Assembly: GCA_029243485.1 (NCBI GenBank)
Contig: JAQWRY010000071.1
Span: 1 to 64,000, forward strand
DNA length: 64,000 nt
From: Candidatus Binatia bacterium
Lineage (GTDB): Bacteria > Desulfobacterota > Binatia > UBA12015
Reading direction: 5' to 3'
Of the stretch, positions 4,256 through 53,281 are shown in pieces. The position numbers and the translations under genes are program-made. Below the pieces are notes generated by a model. The model worked only from the letters and a program-made list of their open reading frames with translations. It was not told the origin of the DNA and did not search any database. How positions within the stretch are numbered: the first letter of the stretch is position 1; each line of letters opens with the position of its first letter.

Positions 4256-7200
4256 CTAGTAGCGACCCTTCGCTCGGCCCCCCTTCAGCGCCATCTCGTG
4301 GAGCAGCGTCTGGCTGTCCAGATCCAGGAGCAGCGCGCCGTCGGAGACCTGGCCCACGATGCGACCGTCGACGAGCGACATCAGGTCCGTGCCCAGGTGA
4401 TCACCGGGCTTGCCGTAGAACGGCTCACCGATGTTTCGCCCCTTGAAGTCCAGAGCGTAGATGGCGCCCGACGGGGACTTTTTCCTCGCCTTCCCCTTCA
4501 GGACGACGTTCGGCGCGCCCACCAGGATCCGCTCGGAGACGAAGTCGACGACGATCGCCGTACCGAAGTCACCCTTCTTCCGGGTCCGGCTCCAGAGCGT
4601 CGTGCCCTTTACGACGTCGCGCACCAACACCCGACCGCGCTGCTTTCCGAGGGCCAACCCGAACACCACCTCGGGCATGCCGTCGCCGGTGAGATCGGGG
4701 AGCATCGTGGCCGAGCGAATGCCGCCGACGCCGAGATCCTTCGGCGAAACGTTGAACTTCCTGTTGCCGAACTGCGCATTGAAGCGCCCACCCAGGCAGG
4801 AAGATCCGTCTTTACAGCCGCGCGTGAAGATCCGGAAGAAGTCCGGGTCGAATCCGGGGGGCGGAAGGTTGGAGAAGTCGAAATCGGGGTCGAAGTTCCC
4901 GCCCGGGCCGTTCGGGTCGAAGAGACAGATCGGCTGACCGGCGTTGCAGAGATCACACGCATCGCCGATGCCGTTGTCATTCTGGTCGCGCTGGTCCGGG
5001 TTGTCGTCGAACGGGCAGTTGTCGTCTTCGTCCGGAACACCATCGTTGTCGTCGTCGGGATCACAGTCGCTCGGGATGCCGTCGCCATCTTCGTCCGTGT
5101 TGCCACTCGAACGAGTGGGACGCTGGTCGTGGATCTCGCCGTCGCGTGGCGTGCACGAGGTGGGCACGGAATCCGGCGCGTGGTCCACCGGACGAAGTCC
5201 GAGCTCGTTCACACAGCCGTCACTGTCGATGTCACACTGGCAGTTGTTCGGGTTGTTGAAGGGATCCGGCGTCCAGGGACACAGATCACACCCGTCGCCG
5301 AAGCCGTCGAGATCGTTGTCGACCTGCTCCGGATTCACGTCGGCCGGGCAGTTGTCGTCCTCGTTCGGAACTCCGTCGAGGTCACGGTCGGGAAGGAAGC
5401 GGAACACGGCGTTCCGCTCGCCCGCCCGGCAGGCCGCCGGACGCGTCGGTGAGGGGGCGCACCAGAGCGTATCGGTGAAGCGGTAGCGACCTTCCGCATC
5501 GACCGCGTCGAGGGGACGCGTGAAGATCTCCTGAACCGTAGGAGCGGCGCTCAAGACTCCGTCGAAGAAGGCGGCCAGGTTCGGCGAGGCGGGAATCTCC
5601 TCGCTGAGCATTGCCCACAGCGCCTCCCGAGCAAGGCGATGCGCGCGACGCGCCGCGGAATCTGCACCCGGTGCGAGTGGTCGCAGCACCTCGTAGACCA
5701 CCAGGAGCAAGCCCTCCGTCAGCTGAAGATCCGTCGCCTCACAGTGCGAGGAGTCTCCGGACGGAACCACGCAGATCCCGGCCGACGTCAGATCACACGA
5801 CGCGAGCCCAGCCGGGCCACCGCACAGAGTCGTACACTGGCTGCAGAGGCTCCTGCTGGCGGGACACGCCTGGCAGGTCCCGTTCAGCACCGAAAGGTCG
5901 AGCTGCGCGCGCTTCAGACCACCGCCATCGTGGATCAGGTTGATGGTGTCGGTGCTCCAGGTGCCACCCGGGCCCGCGAGAGGAGCAAGCGAGTCACCTG
6001 CGAAGATCGAGCTCGTATCGAGCGTCAAGCCGCCCGACACCGGGATGTTCAGAAGAGGGATCTGCATGAGGCCGTCGAGAATCCGGCCCGGCATCCTACC
6101 GACCGATGCGAGCCGATCATGGATCATGCCGCGCGCGATCTCGCCGGCGGCAATGCAGGTGGCGAGCGGGACTCCCGCAGCGCCGAGCGGAGGGAAGAGG
6201 ATTGCCACTTCGACGGGCAGCGCGGGAAGGAAGCAGAGGGCACCGGGAGCGATGGAGATGTCGGTCGAAACGAGACGGGAGCGAACGTGGACGTCGAGAC
6301 CGGTTCCGCTCTCGGCCAGGTCGCGCGGCGCGCCAAGGCGGTAATCCTCGAAGATCAAGCCACGGTCGAATCGGCAGCCCGCGCCCGAACACGCAACGGG
6401 CTGGATGCGCAGTTCGAAGACCAACTGGTTCACGCCGATGTCGAGAGCCGCACCGAGCAGGTCGTTCGGGTCGAGATCGCCGGCGATCGGAAGTTCGACG
6501 ACCAGCACAGGCGCCTCACGATCCTGCTCGCTGTTCCCCGAGTCGAAGGCGTTGAAGGACGTGCACACGCCAACCGTGTCGGCGCAGACGCCCGGCTCGA
6601 GAAAGCTGCGATCGCGGCAATCGTCGTTGGTCGAGCAGAGGCGATTCCACCGACACTCGCCGGCGACGGCTTCGCCTGCGTCGTCCGTAGGACAATCATA
6701 CCCGGCGGAGCAGTTCGCGCGGACGTCGTCGCCCTCCATCGAACAGCTCCCTGTGTCCGACGGGAACTCGTACGTGTGGAAGTTCGTCCGCGGGCCGTCC
6801 CAGAAGACGTCGATGTCGTTCGAATCCACGCGGAGGTGAAGATCGTCGAACGGCACGGACTCGAGAGCTCCGAGACCGAAGCCGCCACAGACTGCGTCTG
6901 GCAGCTGGCCCTGAAGAAGCGGGCTCTCGCAGAGCGCGGCGACCTCGGCCTCCAACGTCGAGAGGGGAATCGGTGCAAAGAGGGGGCTGGCCGGCCCGAG
7001 CACGCTGGCGAACGCCTCGGGGCCCGACGCCCGGTGATCCGGGTTGCGGGGGTCGTAGATCTCGACGTCGCCGTTCGCTTCCGGCCAGAGGGCGCTCTTC
7101 ACGCTCAGCTGGCCTCCGAGATTCCGCAGAAGGTTCCGCAGCGGCCGAACCTGTCGGTTCCGGGACTCGAAGGTGCCGGCCCGGATCTCAGCGCGTGTGA

Positions 7201-7957: not shown

Positions 7958-7996
7958 GTAACGATTAAAGAATTCGCCGAGATTAAAGAACGTCCC
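7958..7996 (-). repeat. Intergenic repeat, CTTTAATC subfamily, solo copy
   Basis: Read on the minus strand it starts GGGACGTTCTTTAATC and contains two GATTAAAGAA-type half-sites (plus strand) 18 bases apart. It differs from the copy at 49051-49090 at only about 4 of 39 positions. It lies a few bases beyond the stop codon of the luciferase-like gene at 8001. No inverted partner is seen beside it. Confidence 0.75.
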
Positions 7997-9155: not shown

Positions 9156-9257
9156 GGGGACGTTGGTTAGTCCCGCCCAAAACGTTTAGTCACGGCCGAC
9201 CGGCCTGCGCGGGCGGGCGGGGTTAAACAAAAAAGGCGAGACTAACCAACGTCCCTC
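9156..9257. repeat. Inverted pair of the intergenic repeat (REPIN-like, about 100 bases)
   Basis: The left arm reads GGGACGTTGGTTAGTC from 9157 on the plus strand, followed by a second TTTAGTC half-site. The right arm, read on the minus strand from 9255, has the same 16 bases and then TCGCCTTTTTTGTTTA. The arms face each other across a GC-rich centre (9192-9220). The right arm ends at the stop codon of the OsmC gene (9259). Confidence 0.8.
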
Positions 9258-20616: not shown

Positions 20617-21351
20617 GTGGCAACAGTTAATCGAGAGGAGTTCCGGCTACGCCACGGGCGGTTGATCGGCGGCAAGTATGTCGTCGAGGAGCCGCTCGGG
20701 ATGGGCTGGGAGGGCGAGGTTTATCGCGTGACCGAGCGCACCACCGGTGCGACGCGTGCGGTGAAGCTGTTCCATCCGCAGAGGAACCTGCGAGACCGGC
20801 GCCTGACGCGTTACGCGCAGAAGCTCGAGAAGCTTCGTCACTGCTCGATCGTCATGCAGTACCACCACTCCGAGCCCGTCCGGGTGGGTGGTGAAAAGCT
20901 GAACTGCCTCGTCAGCGAGTTCGTCGAGGGGCAGATGCTTCCCGACTACGTGAAGAGCCATCCCGGCAAGCGTCTCGAACCCTTCCGCGCGCTCCACCTG
21001 GTCCACACGCTGTCCGTCGGACTCGCGCAGATCCACGATCACGGCGAGTACCACGGCGACCTCCACGCCGAGAACATTCTCGTTCGCCAGCGCGGCGTCT
21101 TCTTCGACGTAAAAGTCCTCGACCTCTACGACTGGCGGGGCCAATCTTCCGAGGCCCGCCGCGACGACGTCGTCGACCTCGTAAAGATCCTCTACGAGGT
21201 CACCGGAGGTCGCCCCCGCTACCTCTCCCAACCCAAGGTCATCAAAGACATCGTCCGCGGCCTCCGCCGCGACCTCATCCTCCACCGCTTCCCCACCATG
21301 CACCGCCTCCGCCGCTGGCTAGAAACCTTCCCTTGGGGGGACGTTGGTTAG
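20617..21351 (+). CDS. Atypical serine/threonine protein kinase
   Basis: A 244-residue soluble kinase-fold protein. Seen: glycine loop LGMGWEGEVYRV, the ATP-contact lysine in AVKLF, and a catalytic loop HGDLHAENILV that looks more like aminoglycoside-kinase or ABC1 loops than HRDLKxxN. The metal site reads LDLYD, with DLY in place of DFG. There is no APE segment and the C-lobe is short. It may phosphorylate a small molecule or act with unusual regulation. The GTG start at 20617 lacks a strong ribosome site. The last residues GDVG and the TAG stop are encoded by an intergenic repeat arm, so the original C-terminus may have been longer. Confidence 0.8.
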   Translation: MATVNREEFRLRHGRLIGGKYVVEEPLGMGWEGEVYRVTERTTGATRAVKLFHPQRNLRDRRLTRYAQKLEKLRHCSIVMQYHHSEPVRVGGEKLNCLVSEFVEGQMLPDYVKSHPGKRLEPFRALHLVHTLSVGLAQIHDHGEYHGDLHAENILVRQRGVFFDVKVLDLYDWRGQSSEARRDDVVDLVKILYEVTGGRPRYLSQPKVIKDIVRGLRRDLILHRFPTMHRLRRWLETFPWGDVG

Positions 21352-21375
21352 TCTCGCCTTTTTTGTTTAGTCGCG
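21335..21375 (+). repeat. Intergenic repeat, left end of the RAYT element
   Basis: Contains GGGACGTTGGTTAGTC, then TCGCCTTTTTTGTTTAGTCG. It encodes the last residues and stop codon of the upstream kinase gene. Confidence 0.85.
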
Positions 21376-21471
21376 GCTCTGGTTCGGCTCGGGGCTGCGC
21401 GAGGGATTGCAGTGCACGCGGGTACGGATGACCTGCCGGAGGGCTTGAGTAGGGCTTAGCGTCTGGTGGCC

Positions 21472-22347
21472 ATGCCACGAGTCGGACGAGGGGACCAGCC
21501 GGGAGGCATCTACCACCTGTACCCGCGAGGAGTGAATCGACAGCGGATTTTCGTCGACGATCGCGATCGGTTCTATTTCCTCAAATGCCTGGTCCGAGCA
21601 TGCCGCCTCGGCGACCTGCGTGTCGTCGCGTACGTTTTGATGAGCAACCACGTGCACATCGTGGCGCTGCGCGGCTCTCTCAAACTCGGGATTGCTCTGA
21701 AGAGCCTACTCGGCCGATATGCGCAACATTTCAACCGTCGCCATCAGCGCTGCGGGCATCTCTTCCAGCAACGGTATGGTTCGAAGCTTTGCGATACGGA
21801 CGACTATCTCGTTCATTTGATTCGCTACGTGCACGCGAATCCGGTTCGAGCGGAGATGGTCGCGGCCGCGGGCGAGTATCGGCATTCTTCGCACCGTTGG
21901 TACGCTGACTCTCGCTGGCCTCGCTGGGCAGCTCCAGAGGTGGTGCAAGGGTCGTTCGGGAGTTCGACGGCGCTTCGGCGGTTCTTTGCAAAGAGCGATG
22001 TCCTTCAGGATCGTCGGCAGATCGAGGCATACGAGTCGCGCGTACTCGGCGCGCGGCTGGTTCCTGTGGAGCCCGGGGGTGCCTTGCCTGGGGAACCCTC
22101 CCTTGAGGCCTTGGCCCCCGAACCTCGCCAGCTAGTCGCGTTGCAGGCCGAAATCGAACGATACCGGGGGCTCTCGCCCGGCCAGCTTTACGGAAATCGC
22201 CCGACCGAGACGGCCGCCGCTGCACGTCGCGAGTTCGCGGTTGCCGCGGTGAAGCTCGGCGGGGTGCGCGCGGCGAGTGTGGCTCGGTTTCTCGGGATCA
22301 GCCCTGGGAGAGTGAGTCAGGTGCTCTCGGCGTGGCGCGACGACTAA
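21472..22347 (+). CDS. REP-associated tyrosine transposase (RAYT, Y1_Tnp family)
   Basis: A 291-residue single-strand-specific transposase of the HUH type. The N-terminus RGDQPGGIYHLYPRGVNRQ, the metal-binding motif HVHIV in YVLMSNHVHIVAL, and the segment DYLVHLIRYVHANPVRAEM with the candidate nucleophile tyrosine are characteristic. The C-terminal half adds a helix-turn-helix-like end (VARFLGISPGRVSQVLSAW) that could read the repeat. ATG at 21472 is preferred over GTG at 21466. The stop TAA lies inside the right repeat arm. RAYT proteins are known to be tied to dispersed REP/REPIN sequences, which fits the related repeats elsewhere in this window. Confidence 0.92.
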   Translation: MPRVGRGDQPGGIYHLYPRGVNRQRIFVDDRDRFYFLKCLVRACRLGDLRVVAYVLMSNHVHIVALRGSLKLGIALKSLLGRYAQHFNRRHQRCGHLFQQRYGSKLCDTDDYLVHLIRYVHANPVRAEMVAAAGEYRHSSHRWYADSRWPRWAAPEVVQGSFGSSTALRRFFAKSDVLQDRRQIEAYESRVLGARLVPVEPGGALPGEPSLEALAPEPRQLVALQAEIERYRGLSPGQLYGNRPTETAAAARREFAVAAVKLGGVRAASVARFLGISPGRVSQVLSAWRDD

Positions 22348-22377
22348 ACAAAAATCGGGAGACTAACCAACGTCCCT
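22341..22377 (-). repeat. Intergenic repeat, right end of the RAYT element
   Basis: On the minus strand it reads AGGGACGTTGGTTAGTC and then TCCCGATTTTTGTTTAGTCG. It supplies the stop codons of the transposase (plus strand) and of the amidohydrolase (minus strand). Confidence 0.85.
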
Positions 22378-28924: not shown

Positions 28925-28985
28925 AGGGACGTTGGTTAGTCGAGCCGAAAAAGTTTAGGCTAAACGTCGGCTAATCAACGTCCCT
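28925..28985. repeat. Palindromic pair of the intergenic repeat between convergent genes
   Basis: The left arm starts GGGACGTTGGTTAGTC and ends near TTTAG at 28958; the right arm, on the minus strand, reads AGGGACGTTGATTAGCC with GTTTAGC. The arms meet almost directly (TTTAG/GCTAAA), so a single long hairpin of about 60 bases can form. The right edge provides the TAG of the RidA gene. It may act as a bidirectional terminator. Confidence 0.85.
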
Positions 28986-48938: not shown

Positions 48939-49061
48939 GTGAACACCGGTGGCCCCGACTCCCGCGTCCGGCCGAAACCACGAGAAGCTCCCGTGCCCGC
49001 GGGAGATCAAGACGAACCACCGAAGGCTCCGCCGACGAGGCGCGGCGAGAGTGACGATTAA
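48939..49061 (+). CDS. Possible 40-residue Pro/Arg-rich peptide
   Basis: GTG at 48939 is preceded by an excellent ribosome site (AAGGAGG, spacing 7). The product begins MNTGGPDSRVRPKPREAP and is Pro-, Arg- and Asp-rich, with no hydrophobic core, so it would be disordered. The stop TAA is made by the intergenic repeat at 49051. The ribosome site is the only strong evidence. The rest of 48835-49173 shows no other gene. Confidence 0.35.
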   Translation: MNTGGPDSRVRPKPREAPVPAGDQDEPPKAPPTRRGESDD

Positions 49062-49090
49062 AGAAACCGCCGAGACTAAAGAACGTCCCT
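49051..49090 (-). repeat. Intergenic repeat, CTTTAGTC subfamily, solo copy
   Basis: On the minus strand it reads AGGGACGTTCTTTAGTC, then TCGGCGGTTTCTTTAATCG. It is a close relative of the copy at 7958-7996. It holds the stop of the short frame at 48939 and lies 83 bases from the end of the DUF748 gene. Confidence 0.8.
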
Positions 49091-52587: not shown

Positions 52588-53077
52588 TAACGTAGCGTGC
52601 GATCCGCTGCGGGCGAAGCCCCGCCGCGGCGCGGAATCATCGGAATCACCTTGCATTCATCGGGGAGTGGGCGGCCTGGCTCCGGATCTTGATCCGCTCG
52701 GAGCATTCGCCGCGGCCTGCGCGCTCGCCATCGAGACTGCGACGTCAGCGAGCCCGACCGGAACTGAACCGGGTTCGCGATGCTGCCCAATGGCGAGGTC
52801 GGCTCGCCGATCTACAATTCGCCGAGCCTCCCGGTTGCAGGCGGCCCTCGCTCTCAGGACTGTGTGGTCGCCCTCGTGGCCGCGTCCCGCGGTAATGCCG
52901 CCGGCGAAAAGAAGCTCGCCGCCTCCGTCGTACAGAAGGGTCTGGCCGGGCGTGGCGGACCCGAAGCGACTCGCTAGGGCGTTCCCTGCCGGGCCCGTCC
53001 GAGATCCTGCAACAATCGGGCGCCGGCTCGACCAAGTTGACCGGCGGAGGCGGTGTGATTAAGAGCGGGTGAACCAC

Positions 53078-53149
53078 GCGGGTGTAATTCAGTGGTAGAA
53101 TGTCAGCTTCCCAAGCTGGACGTCGCCGGTTCGATCCCGGTCACCCGCT
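53078..53149 (+). tRNA. tRNA-Gly (anticodon CCC)
   Basis: Cloverleaf: acceptor GCGGGTG/CACCCGC, D arm ATTC...GAAT, anticodon stem TCAGC/GCTGG with loop TTCCCAA (anticodon CCC at 53110-53112, reading GGG), T arm CCGG-TTCGATC-CCGG, discriminator T. The 3' CCA is not encoded. A near copy of its 5' third lies inverted about 100 bases downstream. Confidence 0.93.
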
Positions 53150-53247
53150 CTCTCTTGTCCCTAAAGGGTTTTTCGTTCGACCTCTGAGTCACCCGAGAGC
53201 GCCTGACTGAGGGGGTTCCCGGCGGGTTCCCGGTTTTCAGAATTCGG

Positions 53248-53281
53248 GGGACATTCTCCCACTGAATTACACCCGCGTGTT
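53248..53281 (-). repeat. Inverted partial copy of the tRNA-Gly 5' region
   Basis: On the minus strand ACGCGGGTGTAATTCAGTGG, then AGAATGTC one base later, matches the start of the tRNA gene with one mismatch over about 29 bases. The rest of the tRNA is absent. It is consistent with a rearrangement or decayed integration near the tRNA. Confidence 0.75.

Follow-up and report, generated by a model that had tools for sequence, protein, structure and literature searches.

An HUH/Y1 transposase gene between inverted copies of a dispersed repeat, in an arrangement that fits a TIRtron, in a Candidatus Binatia genome

Described systems and the place of the unit

Transposase genes of the REP-associated tyrosine (RAYT) type that lie between inverted REPs were already reported in 2010 (Nunvar 2010, PMC2817692). 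A second arrangement, the TIRtron, was described by Di Nocera et al. (2013; PMC3733652) and corresponds to subclass 2.1 of the TnpA-Y1 proteins of Quentin et al. (2018; PMC6006769): its gene, termed TIRYT, encodes a Y1 transposase with a C-terminal helix-turn-helix (HTH) and is associated with terminal inverted repeats (TIRs). In the 2018 survey, subclass 2.1 is found in 14.9% of strains and no REP-like sequences are recorded beside its genes; REPtrons, according to the same paper, do not transpose as whole units (PMC6006769). The repeat consensus given for TIRYTs, GGGGWSAS, is common to some or most of them and is not strictly defining.

In the stretch of 64,000 nucleotides analysed here (the window), a unit of 1039 bp from arm to arm, at 21338-22376, fits a TIRtron, a known type, its placement in subclass 2.1 resting on domain make-up. 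Like the published TIRtrons, it has a RAYT-like HUH/Y1 protein of approximately 300 aa with a C-terminal HTH (PMC3733652, PMC6006769), flanking inverted repeats that begin GGGG and may overlap the gene end, an arrangement labelled 3'ov (PMC3733652), and further copies of that repeat, dimers included, spread over the genome in moderate number. Unlike them, its end tag, GGGGACGT, departs from GGGGWSAS at letters 7 and 8, so that the motif is not found in full in the arms and the left arm fits letters 1 to 6 only; furthermore, each arm carries paired direct repeats, a feature absent from the published description in its accessible parts. On that footing, the paired-site design of the arm ends is apparently new and undescribed.

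The unit shares with the RAYT/TnpA-REP REPtrons a single-copy Y1 gene between inverted repeats, dispersed cognate doublets in trans and matching of gene and repeat (PMC2817692; Bertels 2011, PMC3116915), and the nearest solved structure to its protein is one of a TnpA-REP; unlike those systems, its arm has no GTAG plus hairpin, and its protein has an extra DNA-binding domain. The HUH/Y1 catalytic fold and the lack of target duplication are reminiscent of the IS200/IS605 elements (IS608, ISDra2), which differ in that their hairpins are subterminal and terminal inverted repeats are lacking, whereas the arms here are long and hairpin-free. Short two-armed nonautonomous elements also recall the MITEs of DDE insertion sequences, from which the present elements differ in that no target duplications were found and the cognate enzyme is of the HUH/Y1 kind. 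The initial annotation had drawn attention to a gene wrapped in its own repeat; the wrapping is real, but it is no mark of special status, being the norm in the literature and in the distant relatives scanned, where flanking inverted arms exceeded those of shuffles in 61 of 80. The arms of these relatives mostly begin GGGGTCAG and, in some, GGGGACGTT.

The unit and its dispersed relatives

The transposase gene, of the TIRYT type, occupies 21466-22347 on the plus strand and encodes 293 aa from a GTG start; a Pfam Y1_Tnp match (PF01797, E = 6.8e-8) and the HVH motif bear out its initial identification as a tyrosine transposase gene. The residues H62, H64, Y121 and N125 are invariant across 39 relatives; the HUH motif codons (H62-V63-H64) lie at 21649-21657, and that of the presumed catalytic tyrosine, Y121, at 21826-21828. 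Single-strand cleavage and strand transfer by this tyrosine are presumed by analogy. An AlphaFold2 model of the protein (pLDDT 85.5) has as its nearest solved structure 4er8, in which the Escherichia coli TnpA-REP is in complex with a REP hairpin (E = 7.9e-8). The C-terminal part, approximately residues 248-293 (22207-22344), is an HTH: the signal is weak for this protein itself (HTH_23/HTH_28, E 0.026 to 0.032) and clear for the family and the model. Among the 39 relatives, 19 match Bac_DnaA_C and 11 match HTH_23, the family profile matches DnaA domain IV (1j1v, 3pvp), and the predicted helices span residues 248-264, 269-276 and 280-292.

The initial annotation had described inverted arms whose outer 18 bases match. 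The 18-mer GGGACGTTGGTTAGTCTC is indeed exact at both ends, at 21338-21355 (plus) and 22359-22376 (minus), but the true arms are longer, at 36 nt, and are 92% complementary. The left arm (21338-21373, plus) starts GGGGACGT and consists of the end tag GGGACGTT followed by two direct repeats, GGTTAGTC at 21346-21353 and GTTTAGTC at 21365-21372, in which TTAGTC recurs at a spacing of 19 nt; the right arm (22341-22376, minus) starts AGGGACGT and carries the same two repeats at 22361-22368 and 22342-22349, respectively, both on the minus strand. The right arm overlaps the last codons of the transposase gene and its TAA stop, and the left arm provides the stop codon of an upstream serine-threonine-kinase-like gene (20617-21351), a few terminal residues of which differ in congeners. 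With up to three mismatches allowed, the 18-mer occurs at 7 sites in the window against 0.05 expected, a count that no shuffle reached. A literature search for the arm strings returned nothing relevant.

The repeat is dispersed, as had been claimed. In the source genome, which comprises 6.5 Mb in 88 contigs, the arm core, GGGACGTTNNTTARTC, is present at 104 sites that divide evenly between the strands (52 each); a reversed control pattern had no matches there. Many arm copies pair into fold-back elements (MITEs) of about 110 bp: at least 26 complete inverted pairs of 51 to 151 bp were found, mostly of 108 to 113 bp. The claims that the same arms occur without the gene elsewhere in the window, and that nonautonomous relatives exist, are borne out by a 99-bp two-armed MITE at 9157-9255, by a 59-bp inverted pair of arms at 28926-28984, and by two solo arms of a second, more degenerate subfamily, both on the minus strand, at 7958-7996 (GGGACGTTCTTTAATC...) and 49051-49089.

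The arms of the MITEs equal those of the unit, and folding of whole elements yields long hairpins, with z scores of -6.3 (9157-9255) to -14.9, three near-perfect pairs reaching about -13 to -15. Within a variable 11-nt stretch, the arms of one element match at 82%, against 57% with shuffled partners (0 of 5000 shuffles); therefore, the two arms of an element change together, as would be expected if elements passed through a single-stranded fold-back stage or if selection acted on the palindrome. A search of 26 elements for target duplications of 3 to 5 bp found none. The outer flank of the arms is weakly G-rich (GGRG), its letters being weakly conserved (0.1 to 1.2 bits), and the eight elements checked tend to fall outside long open frames, which is no more than suggestive.

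Several further observations were made. The second subfamily, GGGACGTTCKTTARTC..., has 25 copies in the source genome, mostly solo and more degenerate; it often follows GTA and has a longer common tail (...CTTCGGTGGTT...GCGGGAG...GGCCGAGTT) with no visible second arm, and it may be what is left of an older element or of one with different ends. The smallest member of the main family seen is a 51-bp near-perfect palindrome of two arms alone (C88:331975-332025), in which the spacing of the direct repeats is cut from 19 to 11 nt; it may serve as a natural experiment on spacing. At the ends of contigs C2, C3, C11, C13, C18, C22, C30, C48, C49, C52, C63, C72, C79, C86 and C88, many arm copies are found within approximately 150 bases. 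The assembly was probably interrupted by near-identical elements, so that the true copy number is likely to be higher. Elsewhere in the window, an Rfam search returned a tRNA only; its gene (53078-53149) is followed by an inverted copy of its 5' part (30 nt, 53250-53279, 97% complementary; region 53075-53279), and a pair of 114-nt direct repeats, 76% identical, lies at 4947-5060 and 5280-5393 with a spacing of 333.

Distribution among related genomes and the nature of the unit

In a comparison of 14 genomes of the family, a close homologue of the transposase was found in three: the source genome (G000), G002 (51% identity) and G007 (56%). The three homologues form a supported clade (100/100), and each is enclosed by its own pair of inverted arms (G002, GGGGACGTTCGTTACCTTTTC...; G007, GGGGACGTGCGTTTAATTTTC...), with the stop codon inside the right arm in every case. 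Each arm is dispersed in its own genome: that of G000 has 104 sites there and none in 57 relatives, that of G002 (GGGACGTTCGTTACC) has 60 sites and that of G007 (GGGACGTKCGTTTAA) has 57, the latter two being confined to their own genome among those of the family. The 11 family genomes without the gene hold 0 or 1 match to the arm patterns each. Repeat and gene therefore co-occur strictly within the 14-genome family, and the link between them that had been proposed survives from both sides, as family members carrying the gene without arms were not seen (all three homologues have their own) and neither was abundance of the repeat in a genome lacking the gene. G003, one of the 11 genomes without the gene, yields 13 matches to Y1 transposases of a different type and none of such repeats; one of these matches sits in an 885-aa open frame on a contig syntenic with the window (C66:15174-15518).

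G001, G002 and G003 all lack the unit in the orthologous gap, and the MITEs at 9157-9255 and 28926-28984 are missing at the orthologous sites in G001. The comparison of loci with and without the unit that the initial annotation had proposed thus yielded empty sites, but no precise boundaries, because the congeners are approximately 20% diverged and the alignment gives no base-exact junctions. Where G001 lacks MITE 9157, its sequence reads GGGCGACGTTTAG, which may be a coincidence. The G002 unit lies at a different place (G002:C285:20305-21327), in an intergenic gap that is occupied in G000 by a 110-bp MITE (C72:145898-146007), in G001 by repeat sequence of another sort and in G003 by tandem repeats; this gap may be an insertion hot spot or the site of the remains of an ancestral unit.

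The transposase very probably spreads the repeat, given co-occurrence and empty sites, which are strong but correlative evidence. We consider it likely that the locus is a TIRtron in which one TIRYT gene between its TIRs serves, in trans, short two-armed fold-back elements that share its ends. This reading is directly supported by the co-occurrence of gene and repeat, the lineage-specific matching arms, the presence and absence of elements at orthologous sites, the lack of 3- to 5-bp duplications and the joint change of the two arms. The TIRYT protein would most likely act in trans on short elements with cognate ends; by analogy with E. coli TnpA-REP, a single-strand nuclease (PMC8266576), the element may move as a single-stranded hairpin and the HUH/tyrosine domain may cut near the terminal GGGGACG tag.

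An alternative explanation is that the 1039-bp unit transposes as an autonomous insertion sequence, the short elements being its internal-deletion derivatives. The complete ends, the lack of the unit at the orthologous position in three congeners, the different location of the G002 unit and the identity of MITE arms and unit arms are all in keeping with this explanation; however, there is one full-length gene copy of this kind in G000 against about 100 arm copies, G002 and G007 also have one copy each, and the positional differences could also stem from horizontal transfer. We regard it as unlikely. The interpretation of the unit as a multicopy insertion sequence was dropped on the basis of the one gene copy in G000, which likewise gives no sign of movement of the unit itself within the genome. 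The suggestion of the initial annotation that the locus is a complete autonomous unit is therefore unproven, and REPtrons are, in the 2018 survey, said to be immobile as units (PMC6006769).

The label RAYT that the locus was first given does not hold in the strict sense of the RAYT/REP family. If the system were a canonical RAYT/REPIN pair, recognition by the protein would depend on a REP hairpin in single-stranded form, tagged 5' with GTAG/GGAG, and the direct repeats would play no part. The protein does match the NCBIfam model REP_Tyr_transpos (E = 1.2e-18), its nearest structure is that of TnpA-REP, the doublets are REPIN-like and the G-rich outer flank adjoins the arms; nevertheless, the NCBIfam score of 67.4 bits lies below the curated cutoff of 80, in none of the three family members does a single arm form a stable hairpin (DNA fold z -1.3, 0.2, 1.2 and 0.2), the flank letters are weakly conserved, the family has a C-terminal DNA-binding domain, and Quentin et al. 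saw no REP-like sequences beside subclass 2.1 genes (PMC6006769). An arm without a hairpin, combined with a score below the cutoff, indicates that this is not a canonical RAYT/REP pair, and we hold that reading to be improbable. A single-arm hairpin, GGGAC...GTCTC, was considered as a REP and rejected, being weak and not conserved in relatives.

It is similarly doubtful that the transposase is domesticated, a reading in which a host function maintains the gene and the repeats are by-products or have a regulatory role, for instance at the ends of genes. Its single copy, the tendency of the elements to fall outside long frames and the stop codon that the left arm lends to the kinase-like gene would suit such a role, but its patchy occurrence, in 3 of 14 family genomes and at nonorthologous places, is unlike that of a long-retained host gene. 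Chance, an artefact of assembly and a MITE family of the DDE type beside which a Y1 gene merely happened to insert can all be set aside with near certainty, since the many copies at contig ends are not strong evidence and stand against the excess of matches in the window, the same architecture in two independent assemblies, the lack of 3- to 5-bp target duplications and the genome-specific dispersal of the G002 and G007 arms.

Paired direct repeats and recognition of the ends

Under the TIRtron reading, there is also the question of how the end is located. In all three family members, two direct repeats follow the end tag of each arm: TTAGTC at 19 nt in G000, and GTTACCTTTT at 17 nt and GTTTAATTTT at 19 nt in the other two. 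Arms of HTH-bearing proteins show a near-constant end tag, GGGG[T/A]C, and then two short direct repeats. Paired direct repeats with p < 0.05 were found in 14 of 32 arms accompanying proteins of at least 275 aa, versus 0 of 22 accompanying short ones (Mann-Whitney p = 1.3e-4), a contrast in which protein length serves as a stand-in for the HTH and which amounts to approximately one deep split of the tree (four changes, partly truncated genes). In a second, class-level set, the counts were 7 of 20 for long proteins and 0 of 7 for short ones. When the sets were pooled, in a short window that cannot hold a spacing of 17 to 19 nt, direct repeats favoured long proteins (p = 1.5e-5) and hairpins were enriched in the arms of short proteins (p = 6e-6). 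Significant spacings cluster at 7 to 9 nt outside the G000/G002/G007 clade and at 17 to 19 nt within it, the latter being confined to this clade among the relatives examined. The direct repeats of the G000 arm itself have p = 0.03 and are not significant in the shorter window, which is too short for their 19-nt spacing.

These data suggest, tentatively, that the HTH may read the paired direct repeats of the arm, although the evidence of arm-letter covariation does not separate the HTH (partial Mantel r 0.10) from the catalytic domain (r 0.15). With less certainty than the other steps, the HTH would locate the end by binding both repeats in duplex DNA. Rather speculatively, it can be envisioned that the Y1 branch with a fused DnaA-like/HTH domain has exchanged hairpin recognition for duplex binding of paired direct repeats beside a constant cleavage tag, the repeats being 7 to 9 bp (about one helical turn) or 17 to 19 bp (about two) apart.

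TIRYTs are common yet little studied, and the role of the HTH and the finding of the ends are left open by Quentin et al. (2018). The matched sets of gene and repeat in G000, G002 and G007, together with the pattern of tag and paired sites, make both questions testable by half-site swaps. If the paired-site reading is true, new repeat families would arise through changed paired sites while the tag stays constant, and this would show how a transposase can switch to another target family and leave its cleavage signal as it is.
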